In this document: positions 1,655 to 57,804 of the stretch, piece by piece
How the letters are laid out: every line of letters starts with the position of its first letter
How positions within the stretch are numbered: position 1 is the stretch's first letter
Source: Nymphaea colorata
Taxonomy: Eukaryota > Streptophyta > Magnoliopsida > Nymphaeales > Nymphaeaceae
Assembly (NCBI RefSeq): GCF_008831285.2
Contig: NC_045144.1
Location: 16,105,858-16,169,857, forward strand
Length of the DNA stretch: 64,000 nucleotides
Reading direction: 5' to 3'
Position numbers and translations under genes: made by a program
The notes under the pieces: model-generated
Told to the model about the DNA's origin: nothing
Seen by the model: the letters and a program-made list of their open reading frames with translations, nothing else
Databases searched by the model: none

Positions 1655-4600
1655 AAAATGGAAATGTTCGTCACTTTTCCATTGAACACATTAGATTTTT
1701 TTTTTTTAGTAGCAGATAATGACTGAAAGACCCGTGTAACTTAGATTTTATGGTGGACAAACTCAAGTGGCATCGAAACTTGGACCTTTAACACGATAGT
1801 GACAATGATTCATGATATTTTCTCACAATTTTACGATTTTGTTATTGCAAGTTGATATATAAAAGAAGCTAAGACCTCATAGATGCTAGGTCAGCATCTA
1901 TAGTGGATGAATAAATCATAGTGCATTCATGCATTCGGTGTCTGCATCCACATACGCAAGTGAATCCTCACTCCAAGGTTCACATAGGCAATTGGACAGC
2001 CCATGAAGACCGTCCGATTGCATGATCAGCTGGCCCCGATGGGTGGCCATCCTCTACCGGACCGATCCGCAAAAAATCGGATATGAAGACAAATTTTGAC
2101 TTCAATCAAGAAAACCGGATGGAGTTTTGATTTAAGAAATGACATCTAGTCGGAATCCAATTTCTGATCTGAATTTGGATCAATTTTAGTTTTAAACATG
2201 TATCATATATCCGTCTCTGCACATTTGATTCTTAATCTATTGTGGTACATATCAGATTTTGTTTAAAAGTCAGATTCATATTCATGTCTGGATTTAATAA
2301 TCGGATTTGTTTGTAAATTCGAATCATCAACAACAAGACTAGAGGACTTGAAGAATTTCAGGAAAGCCTCCCTAGTAGATTTGGCAGATGAGACCAATTT
2401 AGAAGAGAAGCGACGTAATTCATCACTGCAAAGAATACTAACAAGTGCCATTGACCTATGAGAAATGGAAGGCGGAGAAACTTCGGAAGTAGCCTGAATA
2501 CTAACAAGGCCAGAAAATTTCCGTGGAGAGAATAAATAGATAAAGAGAGATTGGGTATCCATGCCTAGTGCCTTTGGAAGCCTGAATATACTCACTTGTA
2601 GCTCTATTAATCTAAACCGAACGACAGACAGTCGAGACTTATGACATGAACAACAGGTGATGTGAGACAATATTACTCCCATATAGCAAGCAATGATCTT
2701 GGAAATCCTTGATGCGTTTATTTATCCTAGCGACCTCTGTCATTCACCAGTTTGTATTTCAACTTAGGCCTCTGTGTTTTCATTTGGACTTCGACCATGG
2801 GATGGCTCATGAATGTTCCTTCACCTTTGGTAGCAGATGCTTTGTGGCAGCTGAGAATTTGACATGCGTTTGTGGCAGAACCTTATTCCACTCTTATGGT
2901 GTTTGAACTGGAGCAGAGTGATACCCTCCTTACTGTAGTTCAACCACACTGACTAGTTGGAAGTTCAGAGGCACTTCCACAAAAAGACGAGCACAGCCCG
3001 CTCTCTGTAGCTAATCACATGTAAGTGAACAGGGAAGAAGCAAGATTGGTGAAGCTAATCGCATGTAATTAGCTATAGAGAGCGGGCTATGCTTGTTTTT
3101 TGTGGAATTGCCTCTGAACTTCTAACCAGTTTTGGTTGAACTACACTGGAAGGAGGGCATCACTTCGCTCCAGTCCATACACCATAAAGGTAGAGTAAGG
3201 TTGTACCACAAATGCATGTCAAATTAATCAACAACCTCCACAATATGTCATCTGCATGTTAAAATATGATATGAAGTCCAGTGAACGAGAGAGGAGACTA
3301 TGTTTTTCATAGAGTTTTCAATAACTCAAATGTGAACTTTTGAATCTACACTCTGACCCTTTCAATTCCATGAAAGAAGCAGCCCACGATGGACCGATGA
3401 AGGAGTTCTTTCATGGCTTCAAATAAGGACTAGGGAATGACTATTCGGGTATGCTTCTTGGAGCAGGTGTCCTTTAACTGTATGCATATGCAGAGATTTC
3501 AGTTGTTGCTTTCGCTATTGATGATGAACTTGATTTCAAATTCAATGTACATCATTATATTTTGTTTGTATTTGAACGACATAATGTTCCTTTATGAACA
3601 TTCTTCATAACAATTACGCAAGTCATGTTTTTTGCAGTTTGTGTTCCATGATCAGACATGCCATTACAGATATTCACTGCTCTCTGTATGATGTCATCCA
3701 ACGGCAACTTGCCCATTGAAAAGTCTCGACACCTTTAAGCTTACATCATGGGCCAATGCGCTAGCTGGGAACATGGAAATGTCAACATCCTTCAACTTGA
3801 ATGCCTTAAGTCAACTCATGAAGCTAGATCTGCTGAACTGCTGTGATCCATCCTCAAGATTTTATGCATATGTTGCCTCCTAAACAGTAATTATGTTGGG
3901 TCACATTAAAGCTCTAATACAGTGGCAGGGGCACATATAAGCTCGTGCAGGCAGCTGACCACACCAATCTTTTAAATTTTTAAATGGGCATCATTAATCA
4001 TTTATCCTTATATATATATAAGTGCTTCACCAGACATGACTATTTTTAAACAAGTGCCCCTTCAGCCAATTTATCTGGCTCCGCCACTGGCAGTTGGCCA
4101 CACCAGCTTCTCAATTTTCTTTCATTTTTACATTAAGATCGTTTAATATTTACTTTGTTATACATGAAAGTGCCCTTTTAAGTATGAAAACTTGCCCTTT
4201 TTAAGTATGAAAACTTGTGAATTAGTGTCATTCCAAAAAAAGATTTCTGGCTTTTGCTTTAACATGCCTTGTACTTTTCATAGCTACCTAGGGGAAACTC
4301 AATTTTTGGTAGCGTGAAGAAAACAGTATTCAGGGACCTGAAAAGGCTGGAGGTGGGGTTCATCCTCATCTGATCTAAACATTGAAGGCACATCGGCCCA
4401 ATGAAGTAATGGTGGACCTTGTGATGTGACCGGCAATGTGAACAAGTGGAGGAGGTGTCTTGTGTTGTTGATGCATGAACAAGGGCCAAGAGTGAACTTG
4501 GCCCAACGTGGTGATCTACTGAGCAAGTGCACCCATATTATGCGCAAATTACTGGCAGCACATGTTTCATAGTTATCCGCCCACTGCTTGGATTAGGATA

Positions 4601-16149: not shown

Positions 16150-18545
16150 AAATGGGAATATATAACAAAATTTGGGGGACAAGAGGTCCCCTAAATATAA
16201 AAGCAATCCGCAAAGAACAAAACACGCAAAAAACACAAGCAGGAGGAACAAATATACAATACAATGCAAAGAAAAATAGGAGAGAAGAGGAAAGGCGAAA
16301 CGGCAAAGTCACCCAACCGCAGTCAGGCGGCAACGCTTTAGCCGAATGGCGAACTGGATATCCCCTTGCACAAGACGAGCCACAGAATCTGGTGAAGAGA
16401 AGGTGCCCCTGAAGACCCTGTTGTTGCGCTCCACCCAAATGCGCCACCAAGCCGAAATAAGCCACGGCTTCCAGACATGACCCCAGGAAGCAGTTAGGTG
16501 GGGGAAAGGACAAAAGAGGAAGAAAAGACGAATGGATGGTGGGTTTGGAAGATTACTAACAAGGGAATGCCAAGCAGAAGCAAGGACACTAGAGAAAAAA
16601 GAGCAAGAAGTAAAAAGGTGGACCCGAGACTCAGTCGCAACAAGACATAGGGGACACTGGTTAGCCAAACTGATGTCAAGGCGCTGTAAGTGATCAAAAG
16701 TGTTGATATGTCAGAAGAAGCCAGACAAAAGCAATGGCTCGAGGAGATGGGCCAGGAGACCAAAGAGACCGAGGGGGGAGCGACGCGACAGAAGGACCAA
16801 AGGAGGCCAGGTAGCAAGAAGAAAAAGTGAACTCACAGGTAGGTGAAAGGGGCCAGGATGGGGACGTGAACGATGAGAGGTCAGCAAGGCAGAGGAAGAG
16901 AGGAAGGACAGAAAGCATGTCGGGCCAAAAGTGAGAGGGGGAGATGTGAGAGATAGAACTATGCCAGACGCTAGGGGAAGGCAGGTTAAATTTTGAACTA
17001 ATGAATTGGGTGATGGGAGAATGTTCAGTTGCTAACCGCCACCACCAAGAACAGAGGGAAGACTCGCAAGCCCGATTAAGGTTGGTAACCCCAGCACCCC
17101 CAAGAAGACGCGGAAATGCAACCACATCCCAATGCGCAAGGCGATCTGAAGGTCGATCACCATCCCAAACAAACTTACGAATAAGCTTATCAAACCTACG
17201 CAAAACAGCCACAGGAGGCCGAAAGACAGGCAAAGCATGGAGAGGAACCGACGCAAGGCAGTGCTTAGCCAGAATAATCCGACCTGGAAGAGAAAGCAGC
17301 TTTCCCTGCCAACACTGAAGGTGATCCGTAAGCTTCTGCTCCACCCCATCCCAAAAAGAGGGAGCAGGAGGCGACAACGTAATCTGAAGCCCCAGATAGT
17401 CCATGGGCAGGCTAGTAGCTTTACACCCAAAGCAAGCTTCCGCGATAAGTACCGTGACCGGATCCGCGTGAATGAGGAAAATGTGACACTTGGCGGAATT
17501 GATAGAAAGACCCGAGATGAGCTCAAAGACCCGAAGGATGAGCCACGTTCTCACAACCTGCTGGCGAGAAGCACTGCCGAACAGGAGAAAATCATCAGCA
17601 TACTGAAGGGTGGAGAAGGACGGCAAGTGGGAGAGCGAATGGGGTGTGAGGAAGCCAACGACCGTTGCGTGATGGAAAAGCGCAGAAAAGCTTTCAGCAA
17701 CTAAGTTGAAAAGCAAGGGCGAAAACGGACAACCTTGACGGAGGCCACGCTCGAGACAGAAGAAGTCACCACACTTCCCATTGAAGGAGACCGCAAGCTG
17801 TGACCCAGTGACAAGCGACATGATCCACTACCTAAACGAAGGCCCAAACGCAAGACGGGTGAGGAGGTCAAAAAGGAACTCCCAACTAACCGAGTCAAAC
17901 GCCTTAGAGATGTCCAACTTCAGGATGAATGAAGGTAGCCGTAGACAGTAAAGGGAGTGAACAACCTCATTAGCTAGGACAACCGCGTCCTGCAGACGCC
18001 GACCCTTGACGAAAGCAACCTGGAAGGGGTTAATGACTGAAGGCATGACAGGCGCAAGCCGCATGGAGAGAAACTTAGCAATAATCTTGTACGGCGTACC
18101 TAGGATGGAGATCGGGCGAAAGTGGGTGACGTCCGTAGGGTTAGGGCGCTTAGGCACCAGGACGCAGGTAGCTTGATTGAATTTCTTTAGGAAAACAGAA
18201 TTGGAGGCGAACTCATCACAAAACGTAAACACATCCGCGCTACAAACCTCCCAAAAAGTACGAAAAAATTCGACTGGGAAACCATCAATGCCGGGCGCCT
18301 TACTAGTGCCAAGGGCCCAGACCGCGTTCTTGATCTCTTGGTGTTGGAAGGGCCGCTCAAGAGCGATCGCACAAGAGACAGAGAGAGAGGAGAGGTGAAA
18401 ATCCGGCATCGTGGCACGGAAGCGAAGAGGTTTAGAGTAGAAATCCTGGAAATGAGCGCTCAGGGCCAGGAGGATGTCATCACCAAGAAAAATCCTGCCC
18501 TCGATACCCATGGACTGGAGCAACGTCTGACGGCGCCTCTAAAAG
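16150..18545 (-). mobile_element. 5'-truncated LINE (non-LTR) retrotransposon
   Basis: The body encodes, on the minus strand, a LINE-type reverse transcriptase and a C-terminal zinc-binding region. There are no LTRs. The apurinic-type endonuclease expected upstream is absent, so the element is cut at its 5' end near 18,545, as is usual for LINE copies. The GC content is clearly higher than the flanks. I found no target-site duplication. The element is not in copy B, where the whole 5,160-19,840 interval is missing. Confidence 0.85.
16309..18523 (-). pseudogene. LINE reverse transcriptase ORF, broken
   Basis: From right to left: an RT N-terminal part with SKAPGIDGFP and ILKLDISKAFDSV (18,523-17,828); the catalytic part with RGLRQGCPFSPLLF and YADD (17,821-16,694); then a zinc-finger-like end with CPLC and HLFTSC, followed by WWRIWVERNNRVF (16,668-16,309). 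The first break is an in-frame stop at 17,828-17,830. The second is a frame change near 16,690-16,715. The catalytic YADD is intact, but the protein cannot be made whole. This ORF copied the element into DNA when active; it is now a relic. Confidence 0.85.
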
Positions 18546-19443: not shown

Positions 19444-19837
19444 ATGATTAAGAACTTAGCAGATCGGAACGATGCACCGCTGAAGCAGGAAGGCTTCGTT
19501 GAAGACCGAAAGAACGGTAGAGAACCCTACAGTTTGAGATCATGGTCGGGGCTAAAAGACCCAAGAATCGTACGTGTTTCACGCTCCTTTGGGGGAAAGG
19601 ATAGGCACAGCAAAGTGAAAACGATAAAGGGGCTGAGAGACAGGCGCGTTAGGCTTTCTGTCTCGACTGCCATCCAATTATATGATCTTCAAGACAGACT
19701 TGGCCTGAACCAGCCCAGCAGAGTTGTTGATTGGTTGATTCAGAATGCTCAGCATGAAATCGATGAGCTTCCTCCACTGCCGATCCCTCAAGAAGATGAA
19801 GCTTATAACTTCTCTCAGCCACTGACGGTTTCCAGAT

Positions 19838-19897
<60 letters not shown>

Positions 19898-19914
19898 TAT
19901 TCTCTTTTAGATGA
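19444..19914 (+). CDS. CIN-class TCP transcription factor, C-terminus replaced by microsatellite
   Basis: TCP proteins are plant basic-helix-loop-helix-like DNA-binding factors of the nucleus that control leaf and flower growth. Residues about 50-108 form a TCP domain: [10 protein letters not shown], then [11 protein letters not shown], then [14 protein letters not shown], then [10 protein letters not shown]. The preceding [11 protein letters not shown] and the short loop place it in the class II CIN group, nearest in my judgement to the TCP5/13/17 type. Two positions look unusual: Lys at 59 where Cys is usual, and Ser at 74 where Pro is usual. The protein has only 156 codons against roughly 300-400 in the family. 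After about residue 133 the frame reads alternating Ile-Tyr and Arg-Glu from an AT/AG microsatellite. The real C-terminal region is lost, so this is a truncated gene or pseudogene. Confidence 0.75.
19840..19897. repeat. Compound (AT)n(AG)n microsatellite at a block junction
   Basis: About 16 AT units (19,840-19,872) run directly into about 12 AG units. To the left is TCP coding sequence found nowhere else in the window. To the right is sequence shared with copies B and C. The microsatellite therefore sits exactly at the join between two blocks. The related B junction at about 50,470-50,510 has the same AT-then-GA character. Confidence 0.85.
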
Positions 19915-22805: not shown

Positions 22806-23110
22806 AGATAGAGAGATTTGAAGAAATTTCAATTAATTGCATTTCAATCAAATAATCATCAACGGTTCCAGTTTCAACGGAATGAATGGAATCGATGGCA
22901 TCATCAATTACTTTTGCCAGCCCGCCATCGTTAAGAATTGCTGAATTTTCCACCCCAACCGAGTTGGCATCAGTATCCCTGACGGTGGTCGATTCAATTG
23001 CCGGGTCTTCAAAATCCGGCTCGCCTGAAACACTCGGGCATTGGCAAATTCTCCGGCGCCTCTGCCCTCAGGCAAACCCAATTCTCCCCCCAAGACCAAT
23101 CTGGCGCCAT
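22806..23110 (-). pseudogene. Unrecognised protein-coding remnant
   Basis: Reading the minus strand, a frame from about 23,027 to 22,806 has good coding character: EPDFEDPAIES, NSVGVENSAILNDGG, VIDDAIDSIHSVETGTVDDY. An ATG at 23,110 opens a frame (MAPDWSWGENW) that runs one base out of phase with it and stops at TTTTGA, so there is a frame break or an unrecognised intron near 23,025-23,035. The 3' end is replaced by a GA/TA microsatellite. Copy B keeps only the leader and promoter side (52,195-52,300). I do not recognise the family; it is acidic and may be an extracellular protein. Confidence 0.4.
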
Positions 23111-23394
23111 GAAAAGAGGCCTGCCCGCCAAGCCTCCCGGCTCGCGGCGAACCCCGCACCTCTTAAAGATACAGAAAGAAATTTGGAGAGAGAGAGAGAA
23201 GGGTAGATCCGTCTTGGTTGGGTCCCATTTGTCTCCACGCTGGCTGCTAACGCGGGCCCTCCATGCTCCTTTGCTGAGTTGGCCTGTGGTCCCACCAGTG
23301 TTGCAAGGACAGCGTGGCTCCCAGCACTTGACGTTATAAATAAATATATATATATATGTTATAAATATATATAAATATGAATATATACAGTGAA

Positions 23395-24041
23395 TAAATA
23401 ACATAAACAAATGAGATAAGTAACAGAAGTGGGGAACAATTTATAGTTAGAGAAGAGGATATGGATCACCATTGGCTTCTTTCTTCCATCATCACTGTAG
23501 CAGTTATATGTATACAAGGGAAGAGAATGGAGCTAAGGATCGAGTAAATTAAGTGAGAATGGCAGAGATGAGACGGAGAATGGGGAGAGAGGAGTGGGTG
23601 AAGGGGAGGACTGTTGGGAGAGGGGCCTTCGGAACTGTCAACTTGGCCACCTGCTGCAAATCCTCCTCCTCCTTCGACCATCACCACCCTCTTCCTTCTC
23701 TCTTTGCTGTCAAATCCGCCATTTGACAGCAAAGAGAGAAGGAAGAGGGTGGTGACGGTGGAAGAAGGAGGAGGATTTGCAGCAGGTGGCCAAGATGACA
23801 GTTCCGAAGGCCCCTCTTCCAACAGTCCTCCCCTTCACCCACTCCTCCCTTCCCATTCTCCCTCCCATCTCTGCCATTCTCACTTAATTTACTCAATCCT
23901 TAGCTCCATTCTTGTCTCTTATATACATATAACTGCTACAGTGATAATGGAAGAAAAAAGCCAATGGTGATCCATATCCTCCTCTCTAACTATAAAGTGT
24001 TCCCCCACTTCAGTTACTTATCTCATTTGTTTACGTTATTT
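23395..24041. repeat. Long perfect-type palindrome derived from the MAPKKK promoter and first exon
   Basis: The left arm (23,395-23,715) and right arm (23,721-24,041) are inverted copies around a 5-base loop, CCGCC (23,716-23,720). By eye there are about 20 differences in 325 positions (about 94% identity), with very few gaps. Each arm holds roughly 160 bases of upstream sequence and then the kinase start: ATG at 23,559 on plus and at 23,877 on minus. Each then runs through the intact glycine-rich loop (GRGAFGTV) to AVKSA at the loop. The right arm is collinear with the kinase locus of copy B (57,265-57,480 and 57,805-57,962). The left arm is therefore the newly inverted copy, and the kinase body is missing here. 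Both upstream regions face inward, so transcription from either side would make a self-complementary RNA. I infer an inverted-repeat small-RNA locus. Confidence 0.85.
23559..23726 (+). pseudogene. MAPKKK N-terminal fragment in the palindrome's left arm
   Basis: A 55-codon frame from ATG to TGA encodes the start of a protein kinase: EEWVKGRTVGRGAFGTV (ATP-binding loop), NLATCC, and LFAVKSA with the invariant Lys. The stop is created by the palindrome centre itself. The loop motif is intact here, whereas the kinase in copy B has lost a base in it. The fragment cannot be a working kinase. Its interest is as part of the hairpin. Confidence 0.8.
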
Positions 24042-25956
24042 ATCTGATGCATGTCTATCTCCCAATTTGTTGAAATCAGAGAGAGAAAGAGAGGGCTAAA
24101 AAGTTCCGATGCTGTAATGCAATCATATAAAAGTTTTGATGCTGTAGAAGCAGCAAACATGAAAGTGAAAAAAATTAAGATGCTACAGCATAAAAAGAGG
24201 AAAGGGGGTGACCACAAGCACTTTTGGCGCTGAATAAAACTCATAAACAAGAAAGGAAATCCATTGGAAGAGAGAAAAGCAAAAGCAAAGCTATAGTGAA
24301 GGTTAGGAAAACAATAGCAAAAGGAGTTATGGTCACTCTATGAGCCATGACCTTTTATAGATCGTCACTATTGCAACCTAGATGGTATATAACAATCCAA
24401 TAAGAAAGAAAACATGTACTATCTGTATATACAAAGAAGTAATCATCAAAAACATCATCAATTTTTAGATATTAATTTACAAATTTAAGTTAGATTCTAT
24501 GACAAATGAGGAAAAAATAAACAAGGGAGATTTCTTTTTAAAAAAACTTCTATACGGATACCATATTCAGCTCTATCCTAAAGATTCATGTTGATATGTT
24601 GTAGATATATTTTCTAATATTGAGGTATGTGCTTACCATATTAATTAATATATTAATTAATTTATATATGTACTCATCAATCTAATCAGTAGGAGAAAGA
24701 AAGGTAGTGATCTTTTTATAACCATGGATATGGACTCTTCAGGTTGAATTATGTATATTTGTAATCTATCCATCTCTCTTCCCATCCCCCAGTTGGTTTC
24801 CTACTTTTTTTTGGCTTACTTAACAAAATCTGCATAATATTTTAATTATAGAAAGCCTTCATTAGCAATCAACAATTTTCAAATCCAACTATTTATTTCA
24901 CGTTTGCAAATAGAGAATAAATAGTGATGAATTCATGTTAAAAATGTCCACATACAAATATAAATATATATTGGGCTTTTGTAGAGAAATTTACATGTAA
25001 ATTTAGAAAAAAAATTATTTATTGTATATAAAAATTTAAAAAAAAAAAAGAATATTTCAGCCCATGTCAAAATTTTGAAACTTTAATTTGACCCCTTCAT
25101 GAAAAATTTCTGGCTCCACCCCTGTTGTCTCCTACCCAGGTTGCAGTATAAAATGAGCCTCCTATACATTAAGAATGTTGGACGAGCCGAGTCAACTCGA
25201 GTTCGACTCATAAGTTAAACGAGTCGAATTCGAGCTTAATTGATAACTCAAGTTTGTAAACTAGTCGAGTTAGAGCTGGATGAACCCGACTCGATTAGAC
25301 TCATTTTTTTGTAATTTAAAACACTTGAATTGACGTAAATAAAAATGTAAAAATTTTAAGCATAAAACATCTATTAAGGGACACGAGCTTAAGCGGGTTG
25401 AGCTCAAGCTCGGACTCAGTTAAGCGAGTTGAGCTCAAGACGACCTTGAGCACCTCATAAAGTTTGACTCAATTTTTGATGATGAGTAGAAGGAAACCCA
25501 TCAGTAAAAGTTTGATTTTCTTCTGATCAATATGTGCACAAGGACCAGTCAGTGAGCATTCACATGACTTTGGAACTATCTAACTGCAGATCATTTGATC
25601 AAGGGAAGGGTTGCTAGATATGAATAGAGACATATTATTGGTTGATATTGTACACTTTAATCCACGTTGCAATTGTTTTTGGAAATCATTTGGGCATGGA
25701 TCTCATCAGTCTCTCTTGCACCATACCCTGGAAATTACATGGTGTTGGTAGGAAGAACTACGTTCTTAGAGCAGAGGTAATCTAAAGATATTATGATTTT
25801 GTTTGATAGAAGATGATGTCATTATATCTATGCTCCTAACATATTCGATCCATATTTGTTAAAACAAAACATCTTGTATTCCAAAAATGCAATGTATTTT
25901 CTTCTAAATAAAAGCTCTTTTAAGCAGGGGCCGAGAGGAAGGGGGCCCAGCAGGCA

Positions 25957-28495: not shown

Positions 28496-28921
28496 TGAAA
28501 GGAAAAAATGCAACACTAAAATTTTTAAGTGGTTCGGATTAAAAAGATTCTAAGTCCACTTTCTCTCACACCAACAAGGCGATGGATGTGAGGTTCCCTT
28601 GATGAGAGAATTTATACACGTTTCTTGGAGGGATTTTTATAGATTTCTTTAAAATTCAAACAATCCTTCCTTGATTTTTTAGTTTCAATAATCATTTCTT
28701 TCTCCTTTGATGAGGATACGTTGCCACTTTTCTTGCCTAGATTCCTTGCCTTTTGAGGTGTTCTTCCTTGAATTATCACTTCAAATCTAACGGGTATAGT
28801 TGCCTTTTTGTTGGATTTGTTATGATCTTCATGATTTTCTTCATTCATTGAACTGGCATGATCTCCACAATTTCCTTCATCTGGTGAGCAGCTGTAACGG
28901 TCAGCAGCTTGTGTGTTAACA
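28496..28921 (-). repeat. 3' LTR of the rearranged copia element
   Basis: TGAAAG at the left edge and TTAACA at the right edge, as in the partner LTR. On the minus strand the LTR carries an open frame of over 100 codons (28,612-28,983, extending past the LTR edge) that is also open in the other LTR. Confidence 0.9.
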
Positions 28922-30821: not shown

Positions 30822-31242
30822 TGAAAGAAAAAAATGCAAGACTAAAATTTTAAGTGGTTGGGATTAAAAAGATCCTACGTCCACTGTCTCTCACACCAAC
30901 AAGGCGATGGATGTGAGGTTCCCTTGATGAGAGAATTTATATTTCTTGGAGGGATTGTTACAGATTTCTTTAAAATTCAAACAATCCTTCCTTGATTTTC
31001 TAGTTTCTATAATCATTTCTTTCTCCTTTGATGAAGATATGTTGCCACTTTTCTTGCCTAGATTCCTTGCCTTGTGAAGTGTTCTTCCTTGATTTATCAC
31101 TTCAAATCTAATGGGTATAGTTGCCTTTTTGTTGGATTTGTTATGATCTTCATGATTTTCTTCATTCATTGAGCTGGCAGGATCTCCACAATTTCCTTCA
31201 TCTGGTGAGCAGCTGTAATGGTCAGCAGCTTGTGTGTTAACA
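30822..31242 (-). repeat. 5' LTR of the rearranged copia element
   Basis: Partner of 28,496-28,921. It differs by about 20 substitutions and one 4-base gap by eye. The minus-strand frame seen in the other LTR is open here too (within 30,891-31,328). Confidence 0.9.
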
Positions 31243-41188: not shown

Positions 41189-41519
41189 TATGAAAGGAAT
41201 TAAAGAGTATTCAGAGATTTTTAACGTGGTTCACCTGTTAAGGCTACATCCACGATGCAGGGACCCCCTTCACTATGGTGGTTCCTGTTTTCCCTTTATA
41301 CATTCTTTTTCTTTACAATGGATGGGGATGACCTTTTCAGTTTTAACAGACTCGATAAGGTTTCCCCTTTCAGTTACATCCTCTTTACATGAGGATGGAT
41401 TACATGCTAACATGGTTCCACATTTGGTGGAGTTGATGTAACCAACTGCACGTTCATTGTTGGTGGAGCTGATGTAACCAACTGCACATTCTGTGTGATC
41501 AGGACGAGGGTCTTTCACA
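41189..41519 (-). repeat. 3' LTR of the young copia element
   Basis: Differs from its partner only by A instead of G in ATGCTAACATGG and in GCACATTCTG. Confidence 0.95.
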
Positions 41520-41544
41520 GCCTCCCTCAAGTGCAACTGTATGC

Positions 41545-42391
41545 TTCTGAGGTTGAGCTTGACACGGAAATAATTAAACTGTGTGACAGCAATGGGCTTG
41601 GTTAGGCCATCAGCAATTTGGTCCTTTGATGAGAGATGCTGAACTCTGAGCAAACCTTTAGAAACTTTGTCGTGTACATAGTGAACGTCAACTTCAATGT
41701 GTTTGCTTCTGGAGTGAAACGTGGGATGAGCTGCAAGGTAGTTAGCGCTGATATTGTCACACCAAATAACTGGTGTGTTGACAACACTAACTTTCATCTC
41801 ACTTAAGAGAGATTGAATCCAAGTTAGCTCTGCTGCGGCATTTGCTACTCCTCTGTATTCGGCCTCCGTGCTTGAGTGGGAGACAACATGTTGTTTCCTT
41901 GAACTCCATGAAATAAGGTTAGGGCCAATATAAACTGCATACCCTGAGGTGGATTTTCGGTCATCAGGAGACCCATCCCAATCAGCATCTGTGTAGACAT
42001 TAATGCTAGTGTTTTTGGATGCTTTGAACACCAATCCATACTGAATAGTATATTTTAAATACCTTAAGATTCTTTTAACTGCTGTCCAGTGAGCTATGGA
42101 GGGCTTGTGCATGAATTGGCACACTTTGTTGATGCTGAAAGCGACGTCTGGTCTTGTGATAGATAGGTATTGTAAACCACCCACAATGCTCCTATACAAG
42201 GTAGGGTCCTCGAAATCAATGTCGTCTCCAATGTGTAATTTAGAGGAGGATGACATTGGAGTGGTGAATGGTTTGCACTCATGCATTTTTGCCTTTTTTT
42301 GGAAGATCCATGATGTACTTCCGTTGAGAGAGGATAGCACCTTGGGAATTATACAGAACTTCCACCCCAAGGAAAAAATGAAGCCTCCCAA
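41545..42391 (-). pseudogene. RNase H part of the young copia element
   Basis: Contains LYRSIVGGLQYLSITRPDVA, VYTDADWDGSPDDRKSTSG, SSTEAEYRGVANAAAELTW, VIWCDNISANYLA and IADGLTKPI, the copia RNase H signature with its acidic residues intact. RNase H removes the RNA strand during reverse transcription. The frame is shifted against the RT frame at an A-run near 42,295, so the polyprotein ends early unless the frame is changed. Confidence 0.9.
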
Positions 42392-43200
42392 GATCCCTTA
42401 AGGCAAACTGCTCACCCAGAAGCTTAATAATCTTGTTAGTAAGACTTTGAGAATTGCCGGTGACAAGAATGTCGTCAACATAGACCAGAATATAAACGAT
42501 ATTTTCACCACTATGCATGATAAATAAAGAAGGATCAGTTTTAGAGCATGTGAATCCAAAATGAAAGAGACTTTGACTCAGCCGTTGAAACCAGGCTCGA
42601 GGGGCTTGCTTTAGTCCATATAGGGCCTTATGAAGGTGGCAGACGTGTGATGGAAATTGATGGTTGACGAAGCCGGGCGGTTGAGCCATATACACTTTCT
42701 CAGATAAGGTTCCATTAAGGAATGCATTATGGACATCAAGTTGTCTAATTATCCAATTCCCCCGTAAAGCAAGTGAGATCATGGTTCGAATAGTACCTGG
42801 TTTGACGACAGGGCTGAAAGTTTCAAAGAAATCAACTCCTTCTTCTTGGTGAAACCCTTTTGCGACAAGTCTAGCTTTGTGTCGCTCAAGAGTTCCATCT
42901 GACTTGCGTTTGATGCGGTACACCCATTTGCATCCCACAACATTCATGTTCGAGGTCCGAGGCACAAGAGACCATGTTTTATTCTTGCAAAGAGCTTGAA
43001 ATTCGTCTTGCATAGCAGCACGCCACTCGTTATGCTTGGTGGCTTCATTAAAATCTTTTGGTTCCTTGTCTTCAAGGAGTTTAGTCACTAAGAGACTAGA
43101 GAAAGCATAAGGAGAGGATGGTTTGAGTGAACCAGTTTGGGAGCGTGTCACCATAGAGTGAGACCTTGAGGTGACCAGCGGTTCCTCTTGAGGAGCAGGT
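42279..43200 (-). CDS. Reverse transcriptase part of the young copia element
   Basis: The frame includes WVYRIKRKSDGTLERHKARL, GFHQEEGVDFFETFSPVVKP, QLDVHNAFLNGTL, ALYGLKQAPRAW and the catalytic YVDDILVTG. All are classic copia RT motifs. It starts after the inverted segment; the sequence before VTRSQTG is still in frame back to about 43,199. It stops at 42,279 from a frameshift in a run of A. The domain is intact, but there is no evidence it can be translated on its own. Confidence 0.85.
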
Positions 43201-43334
43201 TGAAGCTAATGTCACTCACAGAACCAACCAAGGTAGCGGAAACCAATATTATGGAAGGGGAAACTATCGTGGAGGCCGTGGTGGTCGATTTCGCTCACGA
43301 GGCCGAGGACGAGGAAACTACAACAACAATCAGC
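43199..43334 (+). repeat. Inverted copy of gag sequence inside pol (partner 44,938-45,073)
   Basis: The 136 bases are the reverse complement of the gag region that encodes the Arg-Gly-rich stretch, with one mismatch that I can see. On the plus strand they read VEANVTHRTNQGSGN then RGGRGGRFRSRGRGRG, which is exactly the minus-strand gag text. They sit between integrase and RT and bring stops into the polyprotein. Confidence 0.9.
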
Positions 43335-44092
43335 GGAGTAGGTTGATCTGGACTTGTTTGTGGCGAGCTAGGAGCAATAAGCAGTTCACTGTCATGAACA
43401 GGAGCAGTAGGATTTTCTGCAAGGGCACTGCTTGAAGATGAGAGCCATGGAGGCACAAGAACAGCTTGTGAGTGAGTTCCTCGGGCTGAAGTGTCATTAG
43501 CTGATTTTTCAATAAAAGGAAAATTTTCTTCATTGAAAATAACATCTCTGGACACAATAATCTTGAATGAGTTAGGATCCATGCATAGATAGCCATGATG
43601 GTTATCACTATAACCCATAAAAACATGAGCATGAGATCGATAGTCGAGTTTGTTGGATCTATACGCTCTCAAGTTGGGGAAGCATAAACACCCAAAAGTT
43701 TTAAGAAACTTGTAGTTGGGTTCCTTGTTCCAAAGCATTTCAAGGGGACTTGTATTTTTCAAGCCTGCAGCAGGCAATCGATTTATCAGAAATATTGCAG
43801 CTGAAAAGGCAAAATTCCAGAGTTGTTTTGACACATTGCTATGAGCTATAAGAGTCAATCCAGTATCAACGATATGCCTATGTTTGCGTTCAGAGACGCC
43901 ATTCTGTTCTTGGGTGTGAGGACAGGAATAACGATGTTTAATTCCTACCTTGGAAAAATAGTTGTCCATGCACTTGTATTCTCCTCCACCGTCACTATGG
44001 AAGTTCTTAATTTTTCTTCCAAACATATTTTCAACCATTGCTTTAAACTTTTGAAAGGACTCAAGCACTTCAGATTTATGTTTCAACAAAAA
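43335..44092 (-). pseudogene. Integrase core of the young copia element
   Basis: Contains the HSDGGGEY and EQNGVSERKHRHIV motifs of the DDE core, then AAIFLINRLPA and FGCLCFPNLRAY. It follows the gag-protease frame in phase after a single TGA codon at about 44,096-44,098 that stands where Trp would be expected. The right side is therefore a simple nonsense break. The left side ends in the inverted gag segment. Confidence 0.9.
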
Positions 44093-44095
44093 AAG

Positions 44096-45745
44096 TCATG
44101 TAAATCTTGACCATGCAGCAACAAAGATAACATAAAAACGATGTCCATAGATACTAGAAATAGGGGCTGGCCCCCATACATCTAAAAAGATGATCTCTAG
44201 AGGTTCCAATTTACTGTAATCAATGCGATTAAAGGGTAACTTATGCATTTTAGCAGTTTGACAGGAAGAACAAATTCTGATATTGCAGTCCGAAAAAGGT
44301 AAATTAAAAGAACTAAGCACACGATCAACAATTTTTTTATTTGGATGTCCCAACCGGGCGTGCCATGTAGCGCGACTAGCCTTTTCTCCAATGCAAGCAA
44401 CTTTTTCTTTAAACTTGTCAAAGTCAAGAGTGTAGATTCCTCCTTTAACGTGTCCTTTCAACAACTCTCGTTTGGATCTGGCATCTCTAATTCTGCACTC
44501 TCTTGCATCAAATTCAAAAACAACATTATTATCTGCAGCAAACCGATGCACAGAGAGAAGTTTCTTGGTGATAAGAGGAACATGAAGAATATCATGCATC
44601 TTGACATTGAAATTTCCAACTTTAAAGGATGAACTACCAATGTGTTTAATAGCTAAACCTGTACCATTTCCCACCTTGACAGAATCAGTGCCCGAGTAAG
44701 CGGAATTTATTGATAAAGAGCTGAGATCAGGAGCAACGTAATGGGAAGCACCAGAATCAGGATACCACGAATCATCACCGGTGGTCTCAGATGTAGTAGC
44801 ATTGTACGCATGAGGAGGATTGGAATTAGAATTGTCTGATTGCTGGAATAATCTGCACGTCTTTGCCGAGTGCCCTATTTTTTCACATAATTGACAGACA
44901 ATGTGAGAGTGTTGATCATTATAATACCTTTGATTTTGCTGATTGTTGTTGTAGTTTCCTCGTCCTCGGCCTCGTGAGCGAAATCGACCACCACGGCCTC
45001 CACGATAGTTTCTCCTTCCATAATATTGGTTTCCGCTACCTTGGTTGGTTCTGTGAGTGACATTAGCTTCAACTTGTGAGTCAAATGCTTTTTCAACAGA
45101 ATCACCTTCACCAAGGTAGGCTTCATGGGACAACAAGAGACTAAGTAATTCAGTCATGCCAATAGGATCCTTGCGAATAGATATAGAAACGCGCATTGCT
45201 TCATACTCTGGTGGAAGACCACGAAGTATATGAAGAATAAGGTCCTCTTCTTCAACTTTCTTTCCAGCAACTTTCAGATGGTGGGCAATGGATCTAGCTT
45301 TCTGAACAAATTGGGAAATAGATTTGTTTCCCTTTCTTAAATTCTGTAGCTGCTCCTTAAGTTGTAAGATGCGTGCACGTGATTGTGCAGCATAAGCATC
45401 TTGCAGAGTGGTCCAGACTTCATAAGATGTTTCCAATCCAATAATTTGAGAGTGAACAGAGTCAGACAAAGAAGAAATAAGCCAGCTAAGGAGAAGCTGA
45501 TCTCGCCGGCGCCAGTCTATATACTCAGGATTGGGAGCAGATTTGCCATCCTTGATGACAGTTTTTTGAGGTTCAGTTTTTGATCCGTCAATGAAGCCTT
45601 CAAGATCATAGGAGATAAGCAGAGGTCGGAATTGAGACGCCCACAATACATAATTATCAGAATCTAACTTGGTTGAAATGAAGTGTTGAAAAGAGGTAGG
45701 AGCTGGTAGGCCTGGAAGCGGAGAGGAGCTGGCTGCCATGTCCAC
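44096..45745 (-). CDS. Gag, protease and integrase N-terminus of the young copia element
   Basis: A 549-codon frame from ATG at 45,745. Order: gag (SFQHFISTKLDSDNYVLWAS, then WTTLQDAYAAQSRARILQLK), an Arg-Gly-rich part, the zinc knuckle CQLCEKIGHSAKTC, the protease site SWYPDSGASHYV, a pre-integrase part (VHRFAADNNVVFEFD), the integrase HHCC part (WHARLGHPNK, CSSCQTAK) and the first core Asp (IIFLDVWGPAP). Gag forms the particle, protease cuts the polyprotein and integrase inserts the DNA copy. The frame is intact up to the TGA. Confidence 0.9.
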   Translation of the reverse strand: MDMAASSSPLPGLPAPTSFQHFISTKLDSDNYVLWASQFRPLLISYDLEGFIDGSKTEPQKTVIKDGKSAPNPEYIDWRRRDQLLLSWLISSLSDSVHSQIIGLETSYEVWTTLQDAYAAQSRARILQLKEQLQNLRKGNKSISQFVQKARSIAHHLKVAGKKVEEEDLILHILRGLPPEYEAMRVSISIRKDPIGMTELLSLLLSHEAYLGEGDSVEKAFDSQVEANVTHRTNQGSGNQYYGRRNYRGGRGGRFRSRGRGRGNYNNNQQNQRYYNDQHSHIVCQLCEKIGHSAKTCRLFQQSDNSNSNPPHAYNATTSETTGDDSWYPDSGASHYVAPDLSSLSINSAYSGTDSVKVGNGTGLAIKHIGSSSFKVGNFNVKMHDILHVPLITKKLLSVHRFAADNNVVFEFDARECRIRDARSKRELLKGHVKGGIYTLDFDKFKEKVACIGEKASRATWHARLGHPNKKIVDRVLSSFNLPFSDCNIRICSSCQTAKMHKLPFNRIDYSKLEPLEIIFLDVWGPAPISSIYGHRFYVIFVAAWSRFT

Positions 45746-45783
45746 GCTGGTTTAGTAATGGAGCACCATCAGCTCTGATACCA

Positions 45784-46114
45784 TATGAAAGGAATTAAAG
45801 AGTATTCAGAGATTTTTAACGTGGTTCACCTGTTAAGGCTACATCCACGATGCAGGGACCCCCTTCACTATGGTGGTTCCTGTTTTCCCTTTATACATTC
45901 TTTTTCTTTACAATGGATGGGGATGACCTTTTCAGTTTTAACAGACTCGATAAGGTTTCCCCTTTCAGTTACATCCTCTTTACATGAGGATGGATTACAT
46001 GCTGACATGGTTCCACATTTGGTGGAGTTGATGTAACCAACTGCACGTTCATTGTTGGTGGAGCTGATGTAACCAACTGCACGTTCTGTGTGATCAGGAC
46101 GAGGGTCTTTCACA
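45784..46114 (-). repeat. 5' LTR of the young copia element
   Basis: Partner of 41,189-41,519, with two differences. Confidence 0.95.
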
Positions 46115-46312: not shown

Positions 46313-49300
46313 AAAATGGAAATGTTCGTCACTTTTCCATTGAACACATCAGTTTTTTTTTTCCTAGTAGCAGACAATAACTGAAAGGCCCGAGTAACTC
46401 AGATTTTATGGTCGACAAATTCAAGTGGCATGGAAACTTGGACCCTTAACAGGACAGTCACATAATGGTTCATGATATTTTCTCACAATTTTAGGATTTT
46501 GAAACTCCAAGGTTCACATAGGTGACAGCCCGTCAAGACCATCCGATTGCATGATAAGATGCCCCGGATGGTCGCCCTCCTCTACCGGACCGATCTTCAA
46601 AAAAATCAGATATAAAGACAAATTTTGACATTCAATCAAGAAAACCAGATGGAGTTTTGATTTAAGAAATGACGTCTAATTGGATTTCAATTTTGAATGT
46701 GGATTTGGGATCAATTCAGTTTTAAACAAGGATCCTATATCTGTCTCTGCACATTTGAAAGTTTATTCTTAATATATTGTAGTACATATCAGATTTTGTT
46801 TAAAAGTCAGATTCATATTCATATCTGGATTTAATAATCGGATTTGTTTGTAAATTCGGACTCATCAACAAGACTAGAGGACTTAAAGAATTTCACGAAA
46901 GCCTCTCTAGTAGATTTGGCGGATGAGGCCAATGTAGAAAAGGTGTACCAAAAGTCATCACTGCAAACAATACTAACAAGAGCTATTGACCTATGATTGT
47001 CATGAGGGAGAGGAGTCTAAGATTTTCATCTTCACTTACTATTTCACCATCAATTAGATTCGGCAAAATGTCTCCAGACGAGTCTAACTTCTGAAACATC
47101 TATCGAAGGCAGGCAAGACATATTGCTAGGCTCTCTTTTTTCTTTTCTAGCACCTACCATATGTATACATTTTGTCCCCTCCATAGTTCTTGGAATTTCT
47201 GTCAAGGATCATTGCTCCAAGGTTGAAAAAGATTTACAGAACAGTTCGAGTGGAGATTGTTTACTACGGCCATGTCATGTCTTTTTGGTGGGAAGTGTCA
47301 AGGTAGTTGAGTACCATCCATTGAAGCAGAATCTCTCTTTGCCGCAAAAGTGAAGCTTGCAGGAAACTCAGGGTCATCGCCAGAGGAAGAGAGTAATTAC
47401 AGCAATCCACCAAAATTAAGAGGGTTTTACACTAGGATTTGGTTATCCAAGTATATTTTGGAGTCTGCATGTTATTCATAATTGAGGTCAAGATTTGAAG
47501 TCCCACTTGCTATAGATGATTGGCATCTGGGCTTTTTGGATTTCTCAGGGATCAGCTTCTAGGATAGCTTTTCCTGCTGTTTGGATGGACTACTTGACAA
47601 CAGATCAGTGTACATATCGGTGAGGAGATCTGCTGTTAGATTGTTCGCAACATCTTCATTTAGATTTGACAAAATCCTTGAAGCGTTTATTTATCCTAGC
47701 AACCTCTGTCATTCACCTGTTCGTCTTTCAATTTGGGCCTCTGTGTTTTCATTTGGACTTCAACCCATGGGATGGCTGTTCCTTCACCTTTGGTAGCGGA
47801 TGCTTTGTGGCAGCCAAGAATTTGACATGCATTTGTGGCAGAACCTTATTCCACTCTTATGGTGTTTGAACTGGAGCAGAGTGATACCCTCCTTACTGTA
47901 GTTCTACCACACTGACTAGTTGGAAGTTCAGAGGCACTTCCACAAAAAGACGAGCACAGCCCGCTCCCTGTAGCTAATCACATGTTAAGTGAACAGGGAA
48001 AAAAGCAAGATTGGTGAAGCAAGTCAGATGTGATTAGCTTTAGAGAGCGGGCTATGCTTGTCTTTCAGTGGAATTGCCTCTGAACTTCTAACCAGTTCGT
48101 GAGGTTGAACTACATTCAGGAGAGCATCACTTTGCTGCAGTCCATACACCATAAAGGTAGAGTAAGGTTCTACCACAAATGCGTATCAAATTCATCAACA
48201 GCCTCCACAGTATGTCATCTGCATGTGAAAATATGATATGAAGTCCTCTTTTACCTAGGGGCAGTGAACAAGAGAGGAGACTGTTTTTCATATATTTTCA
48301 ATATTTCAAATGCATACTTTTGAATCTACACTCTGACCATTCAATTCCATGAAAGAAGCGGCCCACGATGGACCAATGAAAGAGTTCTTTCATGGCTTCA
48401 AAGGAGGACTAAGGAATGACAATTCGGCTATTTTTCAACCCACGTTCATCCTGGAGTAGGTGTCCCTTCATTGTATGCATATGCAGAGAGGTCAGTTGTT
48501 GCTTTCGCTATTGATGATAAACTCGACTTCAAATTCCATGTACATCATTATTTTTTGTTTTTATTTGAACGACGTAATCTTCCTTTATGAATATTCTTGA
48601 TAACAATTACACAACTCATGTTTTTGCAGATTGTGTTCCATGATCAGACATGCCATTATAGATATTAACTGCTCTCTGTATGATGTCATCCAACGGCAAC
48701 TTGCCCATTGAAAAGTCTCGACACCTTTAAGCTTACATAAAGGGCCAATGTGAAAGCTCGGAACATGAAAATGTCAACATCCTTCAACTTGAATGCCTTA
48801 AGCCAACCCACGAAGCTAGATCCGCGGAGCTGCTGTAGTCCACTCTCAAGATTTTATGCATAAGTTGTCTCCTAAACAGTAATTATGGTGGGTCACATTC
48901 AACCTCTAATACAATGGCAAAGCCACATATAGGCTCCTGTGGGCAGTTGCCCACACCAATCTTTTAAATTTTTAAATGGGCATCATTAAACATTTATCTT
49001 TATATATATATATATATATAAGTGCCCCACCAGACATGACTATTTTTAAACAAGTGCCGCTTCAGCCAATTTTTTTTGTTCCACTGCTGGCAGTTGCCCA
49101 CACTAGCTTCTCAATTTTCTTTCATTTTTACATTAAGATTGTTTAACATTTACTTTGTTATACATATAAGTGTCCTTTCGGGTATTAAAGACTTGTGAAT
49201 CTTTGCCGTTTCAAAACATACCTCTAGCTTCCCTACTGTTCTAGCATCCATTGTATTTTTCATAGCTACCTAGGGGAGACAGCAATTTTTGGCAGTGCAG

Positions 49301-50369: not shown

Positions 50370-52457
50370 TCGCTAGTTGATAATTTGATGACGTAGAGAA
50401 ACAGCATAAGGGGAGGAATCATGGTCCTCTTCAATTCGTGCTTTCAAGATTGACCAAATTGAGGACATTATATATATATATATATATATAAAGAAAAAAA
50501 GAGAGAGAGAGTGTGTGAAATTTTCTTTTTCAAGAAATACTTTGAAAGATGAAGAAGTTTCAACCAAATGCACATGCCTCGGTTTTGTCTCACTAGTTAC
50601 ATCTGTTTTCCAAGTAAAAATAAATAGAGAGAAGAGGAAGGGAAGGACAGTTTGAAATGGCAACCGAATTTAGAGAAAGATGTAAAACTAGGATGGCGTG
50701 ACAACAGAGCACCAAACAAAACTCAACTCTAGGGAGATAGAGAGGTTGGTTGAATTAAATGGAATTTAGCTTGGACATACTAACTAGCTAGTTAATCGTT
50801 TCAAACTACTAATATTGAAAACCATTTTTTGTGGATTAACATGATTTAAAAAGGTGCGAAATTGTTTTACCTTTTGTTAGTGCCAATTAAAAGAGAGATT
50901 AAAACATGCAACATGATTAAAGGTAATACGATGCTACGAACTAATAAAGAATCTTGAATTCAAAAAAGTTGCTAGAGAGAGAATTGGCTCTGAATCAACG
51001 ACCTGAAAAATTTTTGTTTATATATAACAATCAAGGATCTAAATTTCGTGACACTCATCCATATAATTAGACCTAAATCTATCCAGATCCAATCAAAGCT
51101 TTTAGCCAAGGGCCACAAAGGTGACCCACCAAATAAGACCGAGTAGTTGAGCTGCCACACCTTAGCGCGAGGTCCCTTCTTGAGTTGTTAGATACCAATT
51201 AAAGGGGTTGACTTCGGCCAAATTTGAGTTGTTCACCTAACTCACCCGAGCCGAGCCGAGTCCAAGTCTTCCAAAACCAAAAGTTAGTTGCGCGAGCAAA
51301 CCAACATAGGTCCTAGGAGAAAAAAGAAAAGGAAAGAACGGAACGGGATTCCCTTGGGCAGGCGTTCTGGAACACTCACGGTCCTTACTTTACACAGTAA
51401 GTACTTTCTGAGATCATCGGTTATCTTTATCTAATTTGAGATTAGTTTCACTGCAGTATTGCTTGAGCAAGTCAGCTCTCTCGTCTCTTATGGGAGAGAC
51501 GTGTGGACTGCGCACTTTGGCAACACGTGGTGGTTTACGTGAAGTGTTTGCTTTAGAGACTTGACCTGAGTCGTCGCCGGTGGGGCCGAAAAGTCAGCCG
51601 GTGAGGCATCACTGGTGATTCAGATGATGATGATTGTGGTGTGTTGAGTGGAGCTCATTCCTTATTCTCAATCTTTAGCTCCCAGCCACATTCTCCATCT
51701 CTCGCTATCTAGAACATATTTGGTTAGCAAAAAGCTAAGAAGATAACTGGATAAGCACATGAGGCTTTTTTCTTCTTTCTTTCCTTTTTCCTCTACTCCC
51801 CCAAGTTACTTAACAAGTAGGTTGATCAAGGGGGAGGGCCCTTCTAAAATTGGCTCATCTTAATCTCTTAATGGCACTGTTTTGGCAAATATCTTAGTGT
51901 AAAACTCCCATGAATTTCAGCCCAGAATTGTAGATCATGGTAAGCACACCCAACTTTGACGTTGCTCAAGAGTCATTGCTATAAAAATCACCAAAGCCAA
52001 TCCACTGGATGATATTCATAAAAGTAATATGTGGATTTTTTTTCAAGTGAGGAGGAGTATTTAACCTTGACTTAAAAGACAATTGAAGTTTCTACTCAAT
52101 CTCTTATCTTTTAAAGTATATGCTCTGCTGTCAATGTCTCGGGATGTCTCTCTTATTATGATTCAACTTAAATATCAATTTCCCCCAAGGAGGCCGCTCC
52201 CTTGGCTCTACCCCCTAGCCACCTCCGGCTCCATGAAAAGAGGCGTGCCCGCCAAGCCTCCCGGCTCGCGGCTGCCAGCGATGCCCCCACCTTTTATAGA
52301 TACAGAAATTTGGAGAAAGAAAGAGAAGGTAGATCCGTCTTAGTTGGGTCTCATTTGTCTCCACGCTGGCGGCTTACGCGGGCCCTCCATGCTCCTTTGC
52401 TGAGTTGGCTTGTGGTCCCCATGCCGCTGCTTGGACAGCGTGGCTCCTCATTTGATG

Positions 52458-52495
<38 letters not shown>
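50370..52495. repeat. Segmental duplication block Q and beyond, copy B (matches 19,900-23,335)
   Basis: It follows block B2 after only about 200 bases, whereas in copy A 14.7 kb lie between. It begins beside an AT/GA microsatellite (50,470-50,510) and ends at a long AT run (52,460-52,494). A TATA box, TCTATAAAAGG on the minus strand (52,290-52,300), lies about 60 bases from the ATG at 52,234. It corresponds to the start of the gene remnant of copy A. Here the frame stops within ten codons. Confidence 0.8.
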
Positions 52496-52497
<2 letters not shown>

Positions 52498-53086
52498 GAT
52501 CATATGAGGGAGTGATATAAATGAATAGTAGGTTTTCTGCCGTTTTGGATGTGGAGTTTTGGTTATTAGTTAAACAGATCTGGATGCTATTGGAAATGAC
52601 ATTCAATTGCATTCATATTCAGATTTAAATATATGCATAATTTTGGATTCAGATTTGTATCTGATTTAGTGTAAAATAAGTATTGCATACCATATACGTA
52701 TATATAAGGTTGAGTTTTAACATACTGCAGTGCTTATCAGAGTCTATTTAAAAATCGGATTCAGACTCACATGTGCTTATAAAATCGGATTTTGAGGAGA
52801 TTAGGATTGTGAATTTGGACTGGAGTATTAATGTGGTTACTAATGTTTACGTTATACTCGTTAGTAAGAAAAGCAAGAGTTTCTATCAACAAATTTAACT
52901 TGTAAATATAAAGGGTAAACAAAGTTTCAAAAAACCAATTGACTCCTCCTATGTTGTGGGAGATGGAGAAAGTTCTACTTCTACCAATTACAGTGTGAGC
53001 CATCGTTTCTTTGCATCAGTCCAATGACCTTACAAATTTTCTTCTTATTATACAGATTGAAAGTTCCAGTGAATACGAAACCTATG

Positions 53087-53135
<49 letters not shown>

Positions 53136-53160
53136 TTATGTCAAAAGAGTGATTCTAAGT
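52496..53160. other. Copy-B-specific DNA with AT microsatellite, no gene seen
   Basis: AT-rich, with ATTCAGATTT/AATCGGATT words up to about 52,800 and a (TA)20 run at 53,092-53,132. No recognisable frame. Confidence 0.5.
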
Positions 53161-53164
53161 TAAA

Positions 53165-53460
53165 GGGCAAGCTTGCCTCAAGGAGCATAGTGTAGCTGGT
53201 GGGGTTAAAGGCTTGTAAAATATAGGTTTTCAATTCGATTCCCGTGGGCGTTATGTTATTGTGTCTTAAGGCAGTAGGGCACGACATTCAAGTTAAAGGG
53301 TGTTCCATTCTATCACTGACACCAACGCAACTGAGAACTCGGAGGCAAGGGACATGGGGGGCCTTCGGGCTTCGCTTCAAACAGTGAGATTGACCATCTC
53401 GCTCACCCAAAAGGTAAAGGGCAAGCCATCAACCTGACAACTGCGTCTGTTTGAAGCCCT
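53165..53460 (+). mobile_element. Candidate tRNA-derived SINE
   Basis: The plus strand has an A-box-like TAGCTGGTGGGG (53,192-53,203). About 30 bases later comes a B-box-like TTCAATTCGATTCCCG (53,228-53,243). These are the internal RNA polymerase III promoter boxes of tRNA-derived SINEs, at the right spacing. The cloverleaf itself is not preserved, so it is not a tRNA gene. The ends and a target-site duplication are not clear. Confidence 0.45.
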
Positions 53461-53889
53461 CTTTCCCAAAATGTCATAACCATAGGCACTAAGAACTTGT
53501 TAAAAACTTGTTAAAGAGGTGAAGGTAATAAAGACATGCTCGCTCTCTAAAGAATCACTGTAACAGTAGACGTCATGATAGAGGAGGAGCCAAGCTACTT
53601 TCATGGTTTGGCTCGTCGTATGAAAAACATGTTTGTTTTAATTTATGTCCATTATACATGTTGTGGTTTTTTTTTCTAGTTTTATTTATGCATTTCGTTT
53701 GATTTAATCATAGCCACAAATATAATGATATTTTGGGAAATATTGTAATATATTAATGGAAAAAGTCCAAAAACCAATTTTCAAAAGTTTTTGAAAACCA
53801 ATTCACGCAATATACTACAGAGAACCAATTCCTGATTTTCTGTGCCACAACGGCGAGGCAGAACATTCGTTAAACCTGCACAGAGACGG
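53461..53889. other. Spacer, no gene seen
   Basis: AT-rich to mixed sequence between the SINE-like part and the foldback element. Nothing recognisable. Confidence 0.5.
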
Positions 53890-55180: not shown

Positions 55181-55211
55181 GAGCCGTTGGATTTTCCACA
55201 ACCAAATTTTA

Positions 55212-56214: not shown

Positions 56215-56285
56215 TTAGGGAAATGTTTTGGACAATAACAACAAAGAAAGGGAATCAAATGGGTCCCCAAGGGAGAGCGGTTCCG

Positions 56286-57425: not shown

Positions 57426-57481
57426 TTAATTTACTCGATCCTTAGCTCCATTCTCTTCTCTTATGTACATATACATATAAC
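57426..57481 (-). promoter_or_regulatory. Proximal upstream region of the kinase gene
   Basis: Matches the upstream part of both palindrome arms of copy A, including CACTTAATTTACTC and CTTAGCTCCATTC. TATA-like tracts (TATATGTACATAAG reading minus) lie about 40-50 bases from the ATG. The match then breaks at the MITE. Confidence 0.5.
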
Positions 57482-57797: not shown

Positions 57798-57804
57798 ATA
57801 TAAC

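Follow-up and report, generated by a model that had tools for sequence, protein, structure and literature searches.

Gene-derived inverted duplications are already known to have founded MIRNA and siRNA loci in plants. Rice LGC1, Antirrhinum SULF, Mimulus YUP and maize Mu killer are reportedly inverted or partial duplications that give rise to trans-acting small RNAs with an established function, and LGC1 is said to have formed from convergent genes shortened by one deletion. Precedents for a gene-derived inverted-repeat origin are described in several papers (PMC1790633, PMC3237417, PMC13051633, PMC13213937). For Arabidopsis, 48 non-conserved families and 16 loci with evidence of an inverted-duplication origin are given; for some loci two related duplicated sequences are suggested to have been juxtaposed, and decay is named as the commonest fate of such loci (PMC1790633). 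The soybean locus GmIRCHS is thought to yield dsRNA that silences its family, and the silencing was shown (PMC13051633).

PMC3237417 ascribes the birth of inverted-duplication miRNA genes to "not well-known mechanisms". Template switching has been reported to create hairpin RNA genes (PMC8794818), and in yeast inverted junctions arise where interrupted inverted repeats of 2-14 bp occur, a spacing of 40-80 being preferred (PMC10766183). A literature search returned no title on an inverted-repeat small-RNA locus derived from a MAPKKK gene, which does not imply its absence from print. Here we describe a hairpin made from the start of such a gene in a 64,000-nucleotide stretch of the Nymphaea colorata genome (C7:16105858-16169857), referred to below as the window. 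As judged from its sequence, the hairpin could be a source of small RNAs directed against a sister gene that is still intact, and could represent an early stage of the known route to silencing genes.

Structure and genomic setting of the hairpin

The window is a tandem segmental duplication, with copy A at approximately 1-28447 and copy B at approximately 33647-63956. A 426-base direct repeat (94%; 28496-28921 and 30822-31242) lies at the boundary between the duplicated copies. Open reading frames were also observed with a reverse-transcriptase domain (RVT_1; 16694-17821) and with a TCP transcription-factor domain (19444-19914). A copia-type element at 41189-46114, with gag and reverse-transcriptase domains between 331-base terminal repeats, appears to be a recent insertion because these repeats are 99.4% alike. 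A palindrome of about 370 bases (77-78%) is probably older than the segmental duplication, since it is present in both copies (2856-3225 and 47818-48193). A larger palindrome (53890-55180; 1.29 kb, 89%) lies inside an interval absent from copy A. Its relatives among the matches listed were at least its own arms, one partial match at C13:7812627-7813168 (three pieces, 70-82%) and five matches of 30-45 bases, and with so few it does not look like an abundant MITE.

Copy A holds a near-perfect hairpin of about 650 bases at 23394-24043. The left arm (23394-23715, 322 bases) has its sense strand on the plus strand and the right arm (23721-24043, 323 bases) on the minus strand. The loop CCGCC (23716-23720) separates them, and the AAAT (23712-23715) and ATTT (23721-23724) that flank it mark the join. 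Across 323 aligned columns, 20 substitutions and a single 1-base indel separate the arms, whose identity over the 322 ungapped columns is 93.8%. Perfectly paired runs of at least 21 bases number eight and cover 213 of the 323 columns. These measures agree with the preliminary description, which gave arms of about 320 bases, about 94% identity and a 5-base loop; the palindrome that it placed at 23395-24041 is real, with ends that need to be moved outward to the positions given above.

Upstream sequence, the ATG and the codons for GRGAFGTV and AVK are present in both arms, as had also been proposed, and we take the two motifs to be the ATP-binding loop and the invariant Lys region of a kinase. 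When the minus strand of the hairpin was folded as RNA, it reached -590 kcal/mol, compared with -195 kcal/mol (sd 8.35) for 20 shuffles, none of which was as good (z -47.3). The earlier view of an inverted duplication that derives from a gene and has its upstream sequence facing inward is supported, and by this fold a transcript crossing both arms would pair with itself. Each arm also contains a 55-codon open reading frame (23559-23723 on the plus strand; 23713-23877 on the minus strand) that includes both kinase motifs and stops just beyond the loop. A Pfam search of both frames gave no match, and a micropeptide encoded by them was set aside as a candidate.

Relatives of the hairpin were sought by searching the genome (407,766,735 bases) with the left arm; the best candidates only were scored, so that counts are lower bounds. 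At least seven matches were listed, comprising the left arm itself, its partner arm, two pieces of the copy-B kinase gene (B), two open kinase genes designated K1 and K2, and a truncated 5' fragment designated T (C7:8345072-8345365). K1 (C7:15819768-15820892), located 310 kb away and outside the window, has an open frame of 377 codons without a stop and a full kinase domain (PF00069, E 6.1e-53), and its best solved relatives carry the name MAP3K5. K2 (C7:15833621-15834766) is also open, at 72% in the protein search, and is convergent with K1 at a distance of 12.7 kb. Of 1285 first-look candidates in the protein search of the genome, 109 were scored; the ten matches listed at E up to 1e-40 include five more kinase genes at 42-45%. 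Four further open MAPKKK-like kinases, 43-45% to K1, were observed at C7:16014003-16401763, within about 250 kb of the window, where they form a local cluster.

Near-perfect palindromes with short loops are typical of inverted chimeric read artefacts. An assembly or library artefact of this kind was ruled out by the arm-specific differences, some of the 20 substitutions and the indel being common to other copies, and by the colinearity of both flanks with copy B; the probability that we leave to it is negligible. A MITE or fold-back transposon was also considered. Four palindromes in the window passed a palindrome screen, the kinase hairpin being the most alike (92.8%), and the presence of three others would suit a mobile element. 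Applied to a sample of 20 genome pieces of 10 kb each (200 kb), the same screen passed two palindromes (72% and 76% identity), and it passed none in 49.5 kb around T, K1 and K2. All of the at least seven matches listed for the arm are the hairpin's own arms or the kinase copies B, K1, K2 and T, with no dispersed copies of the palindrome among them, and no target-site duplication was seen by eye at 23394 and 24043. A transposon origin was rejected on these grounds as extremely improbable, and the hairpin looks specific to this locus. Altogether, it is almost certainly a real structure made by inverted joining.

Comparison with copy B allowed the two arms to be told apart. The left flank of the hairpin (23083-23375, plus strand) is colinear with copy B 52207-52496. 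Outward along the right arm, 23927-24104 is colinear with 57798-57973, so that the kinase upstream sequence left over beyond the hairpin (24044-24104, minus strand) is colinear with copy B up to 57973. Because of this flank colinearity, the right arm was taken as the native 5' end of the copy-A kinase gene and the left arm as an inverted copy of a kinase start. Between the flank matches, copy B holds a stretch of about 4.7 kb, including the kinase body, that has no counterpart there in copy A. Apart from the kinase and the flank, the only match of this stretch in copy A is weak and distant (52653-52792 against 2173-2308, 69%). By this alignment, the left arm is in the place of the kinase body and its downstream flank. 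The value of about 4.7 kb is the size in B and not necessarily the loss in A, since B may have gained insertions of its own.

The kinase gene of copy B (56286-57473, minus strand) shows the gene body that is absent from copy A. Its reading frame shifts near the gene start, and the protein search split it into two matches, the first with one internal TGA; due to these defects it was classified as a pseudogene. The preliminary description was therefore right in locating a related kinase (at 56,286-57,425) in the other copy of the duplication, but the gene there is not intact. The upstream region of the pseudogene also carries an insertion of about 320 bases (about 57474-57797) with TTATAT on both sides, which adjoins its TATA-like site on the upstream side. 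The alignment shows no such insertion in K1, in T or in either arm of the hairpin.

The join and the origin of the two arms

At the join site K1, B and T all read GCTGTCAAATCCGCCATTTCTGC, and the hairpin reads GCTGTCAAAT-CCGCC-ATTTGACAGC. The join motif AAATCCGCCATTT has the same form in K1, B and T and is one base different in K2. Because K1, B and T read GCTGTCAAATCCGCCATTTCTGC, the native gene already contains the imperfect palindrome AAAT-CCGCC-ATTT, and the join lies at this short inverted repeat with ATTT as the 4-base overlap that it used. Overlaps of at least 4 bases make up 0.56% of the 57,114 distinct fold-back joins in K1 with a return point within 60 bases, and 2.0% when every position pair within 40 bases of K1 is counted. 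Inverted joining at a pre-existing palindrome is as expected of fold-back or template-switch events. At the left end, beyond the last strong match, copy B aligns weakly to AGTGATATAAAT (30 of 2000 shuffles were as good), and the kinase upstream sequence starts ATAAATAAC. From these two sequences we infer a possible 6-base overlap (ATAAAT) within an AT-rich stretch.

In copy A, the kinase body and downstream flank are thus gone, and an inverted kinase-gene start is joined tail-to-tail to the native 5' end at AAAT-CCGCC-ATTT, as fold-back or template-switch repair would produce. Alternatively, a single deletion could have shortened a convergent pair of kinase genes. The family does contain such pairs, K1 and K2 facing each other, and such a birth would explain arms from two paralogues. 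We nevertheless consider it improbable, as copy B 52497-56286 has no left-arm match and the left arm ends abruptly 165 bases before its ATG, at a flank that forms part of the duplication.

Under fold-back or template-switch joining, the source of the left arm was examined by comparing the copies. The left arm is 96.7% identical to T, 96.4% to K1, 95.5% to B and 93.8% to the right arm, and because it is closer to K1 and T than to its partner, the arms may stem from different paralogues. Three columns (two substitutions and one indel in a G run) unite the right arm and B against the left arm, K1 and T, and no column sets the two arms together apart from B, K1 and T. At the two grouping substitutions, K2 goes with the right arm and B at one, where it is poorly aligned, and with the left arm at the other. 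Private substitutions number 3 in the left arm and 12 in the right (p 0.035), nine columns without right-arm sequence having been left out of this relative count. In the best tree, for which K2 was masked upstream of the ATG, the right arm groups with B at 73/76, a support that is not firm. The left arm, K1 and T do not form a clade in that tree, although such a clade is not rejected (p-AU 0.15).

The same product could have had another birth, by simple snap-back, with the right arm itself as the template for the left and uneven divergence of the two afterwards. A symmetric join is what snap-back gives, and a clade of the two arms is not rejected (p-AU 0.159); this course keeps a substantial probability, if one short of even. 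It is disfavoured by the grouping columns and by the uneven private substitutions. Additionally, snap-back of a broken sense strand would make the left arm, which has the native CCGCCATTT, the original, yet the native upstream flank is on the right arm.

The comparison is suggestive, though not proof, of arms from different paralogues, and we tend to favour a K1-like relative as the source of the left arm. The complete scenario, in which the hairpin was born imperfect from a right arm of the A/B lineage and a left arm of a K1-like donor, with microhomology at both ends (the inferred ATAAAT and ATTT), is tentative and less likely than not. If there were two donors, up to 17 of the 20 differences between the arms could predate the join, and the locus could therefore skip the perfect-duplex stage, a stage thought to delay DCL1-type processing. 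The age of the hairpin would then be read from the roughly 1% of private change in the left arm and not from the 6% between the arms.

Possible transcription and small-RNA targets

The right arm keeps a TATA-like TATATAAG (23918-23925, minus strand), 48 bases before the ATG and the same in K1, with a presumed role in transcription. The arm comparison shows that the corresponding TATACAAG of the left arm (23511-23518, plus strand) is altered; the counterparts read TACATAAG in B and CATATAAG in T. Because TATATAAG is kept in the right arm only, transcription from the right is likelier than transcription from either side, which had been the initial proposal; it is plausible for the right side and less likely for the left. 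Copy A matches B for about 60 bases upstream of the hairpin and no further, whereas the sequence shared by K1, T and B extends beyond that point, and with this shared sequence cut, the right-side promoter may be truncated. On its minus strand, the stretch of 594 bases beyond the left arm contains no AATAAA or ATTAAA polyadenylation-like signal. A bacterial promoter and terminator scan, which has no bearing on a plant, returned nothing.

A minus-strand transcript would start at the right-side TATA-like region and would contain the right arm in sense, the loop and the left arm in antisense. It would fold into a long duplex from which Dicer-like enzymes would cut 21-24-nt siRNAs. As the transcript would start on the right, the antisense products would come from the left arm, and these would silence the intact K1 and methylate the locus and its copies. 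We infer the dicing and targeting of the hairpin RNA from the general biology of plant siRNAs.

With the kinase of the window being a pseudogene, the plausible small-RNA target is K1, outside the window. Exact matches to K1 were found for 150 of the 302 21-mers of the left arm, and 225 of them match with at most one mismatch; some of these positions precede the probable start and would thus fall outside the transcript. Were the hairpin transcribed in the opposite direction, 37 of 303 would match K1 exactly. Neither arm shares an exact 21-mer with K2, which 52 of the 302 left-arm 21-mers match at one mismatch. Exact 21-mers of either arm were absent from the 200-kb genome sample and from the window beyond the two kinase regions. 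These comparisons support the view that the match of the intact K1 to the hairpin is close enough for siRNA targeting. The genome holds both a long, closely spaced inverted repeat of a coding gene and, in K1, an intact related gene with a near-perfect match to it.

The arms show no sign of a preserved stretch, the longest perfect run being 35 bases against a simulated mean longest of 52, and the amount of sequence in runs of at least 21 bases does not differ significantly from simulation (P 0.077). G:U mismatches outnumber A:C mismatches by 10 to 4 (p 0.18), which is no significant pairing bias. Selection for pairing was therefore unsupported. Rfam gave no match at the gathering score over the whole window; the 46 sub-threshold matches, animal miRNAs among them, follow the long stem, and a known RNA family was discarded as an explanation. 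A family match at the gathering score is not required of a new MIRNA family.

The same inverted joining may have left an inert rearrangement scar, with the hairpin untranscribed or its RNA undiced, and in neutral decay. This reading is favored by the spread of mismatches without a preserved stretch or pairing bias, by the 12 private substitutions of the right arm against 3 in the left, by the cut in the upstream region and by the right-arm codon changes, most of which alter the amino acid in the alignment judged by eye. The retained TATA-like box and the 213 of 323 columns still in perfect runs speak against it, neither being by itself a sign of activity. We regard the inert scar as a strong contender, at slightly less than an even chance. 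Whether the hairpin belongs with the gene-derived inverted-repeat loci from which siRNA genes and young MIRNA genes of plants start out, with activity presumed from its sequence, is in our judgement evenly balanced, and the production of small RNAs from it stands at about the same level. Regulation of K1 that matters to the plant is unlikely.

Comparison with described inverted-repeat loci

The record of birth at this locus is unusually complete, one genome having kept the native copy in truncated form, its full-length sisters and a likely target that is intact. As the full-length sisters show the junction sequence from before the event, the event can be read base by base. Birth by fold-back or template switch and the possible silencing of K1 are both directly testable steps; if inactive, the hairpin is an ordinary rearrangement scar. 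LGC1, SULF, YUP and Mu killer involve other genes than the kinase of the hairpin.

Arabidopsis MIRNA genes of inverted-duplication origin have fold-back arms from protein-coding genes, as the hairpin does (PMC1790633). MIR163 reportedly acquired its promoter from the gene out of which it arose, and the promoter of the hairpin would likewise be the kinase's own; the arms of MIR824 and MIR846 match two different related sequences, which is suspected for the hairpin too (PMC1790633). The Arabidopsis loci differ in that their small RNAs were sequenced, whereas the hairpin is known here from its sequence, and in that the hairpin arms retain their match to the gene for about 320 bases. GmIRCHS is also a truncated gene in a tail-to-tail inverted repeat, but it has a 1,087-base repeat, a 78-base spacer and the promoter of a DnaJ gene, whereas the kinase's own promoter would serve the hairpin (PMC13051633).

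At VIM4-VIM2 of Arabidopsis Cvi-0, a lineage-specific inverted pair, siRNAs methylate the locus and also act in trans on a paralogue (PMC13213937). There, two inverted genes were brought close by a 2.8-kb deletion, while the hairpin contains gene starts only, and small RNAs and a cleavage tag were shown for that pair (PMC13213937). With respect to its birth, the hairpin resembles described template-switch hairpins and yeast junctions, in which an inverted copy is joined at a short pre-existing interrupted inverted repeat (PMC8794818, PMC10766183). A yeast example uses 4 bp (PMC10766183), and the overlap at the hairpin join is 4 bases. The cases described are human microRNAs and rRNA (PMC8794818) and yeast (PMC10766183), and the hairpin is from a plant. 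Whereas the yeast junctions prefer repeats 40-80 bp apart (PMC10766183), the spacer of the hairpin is 5 bases, which fits self-folding better than it fits the yeast model.
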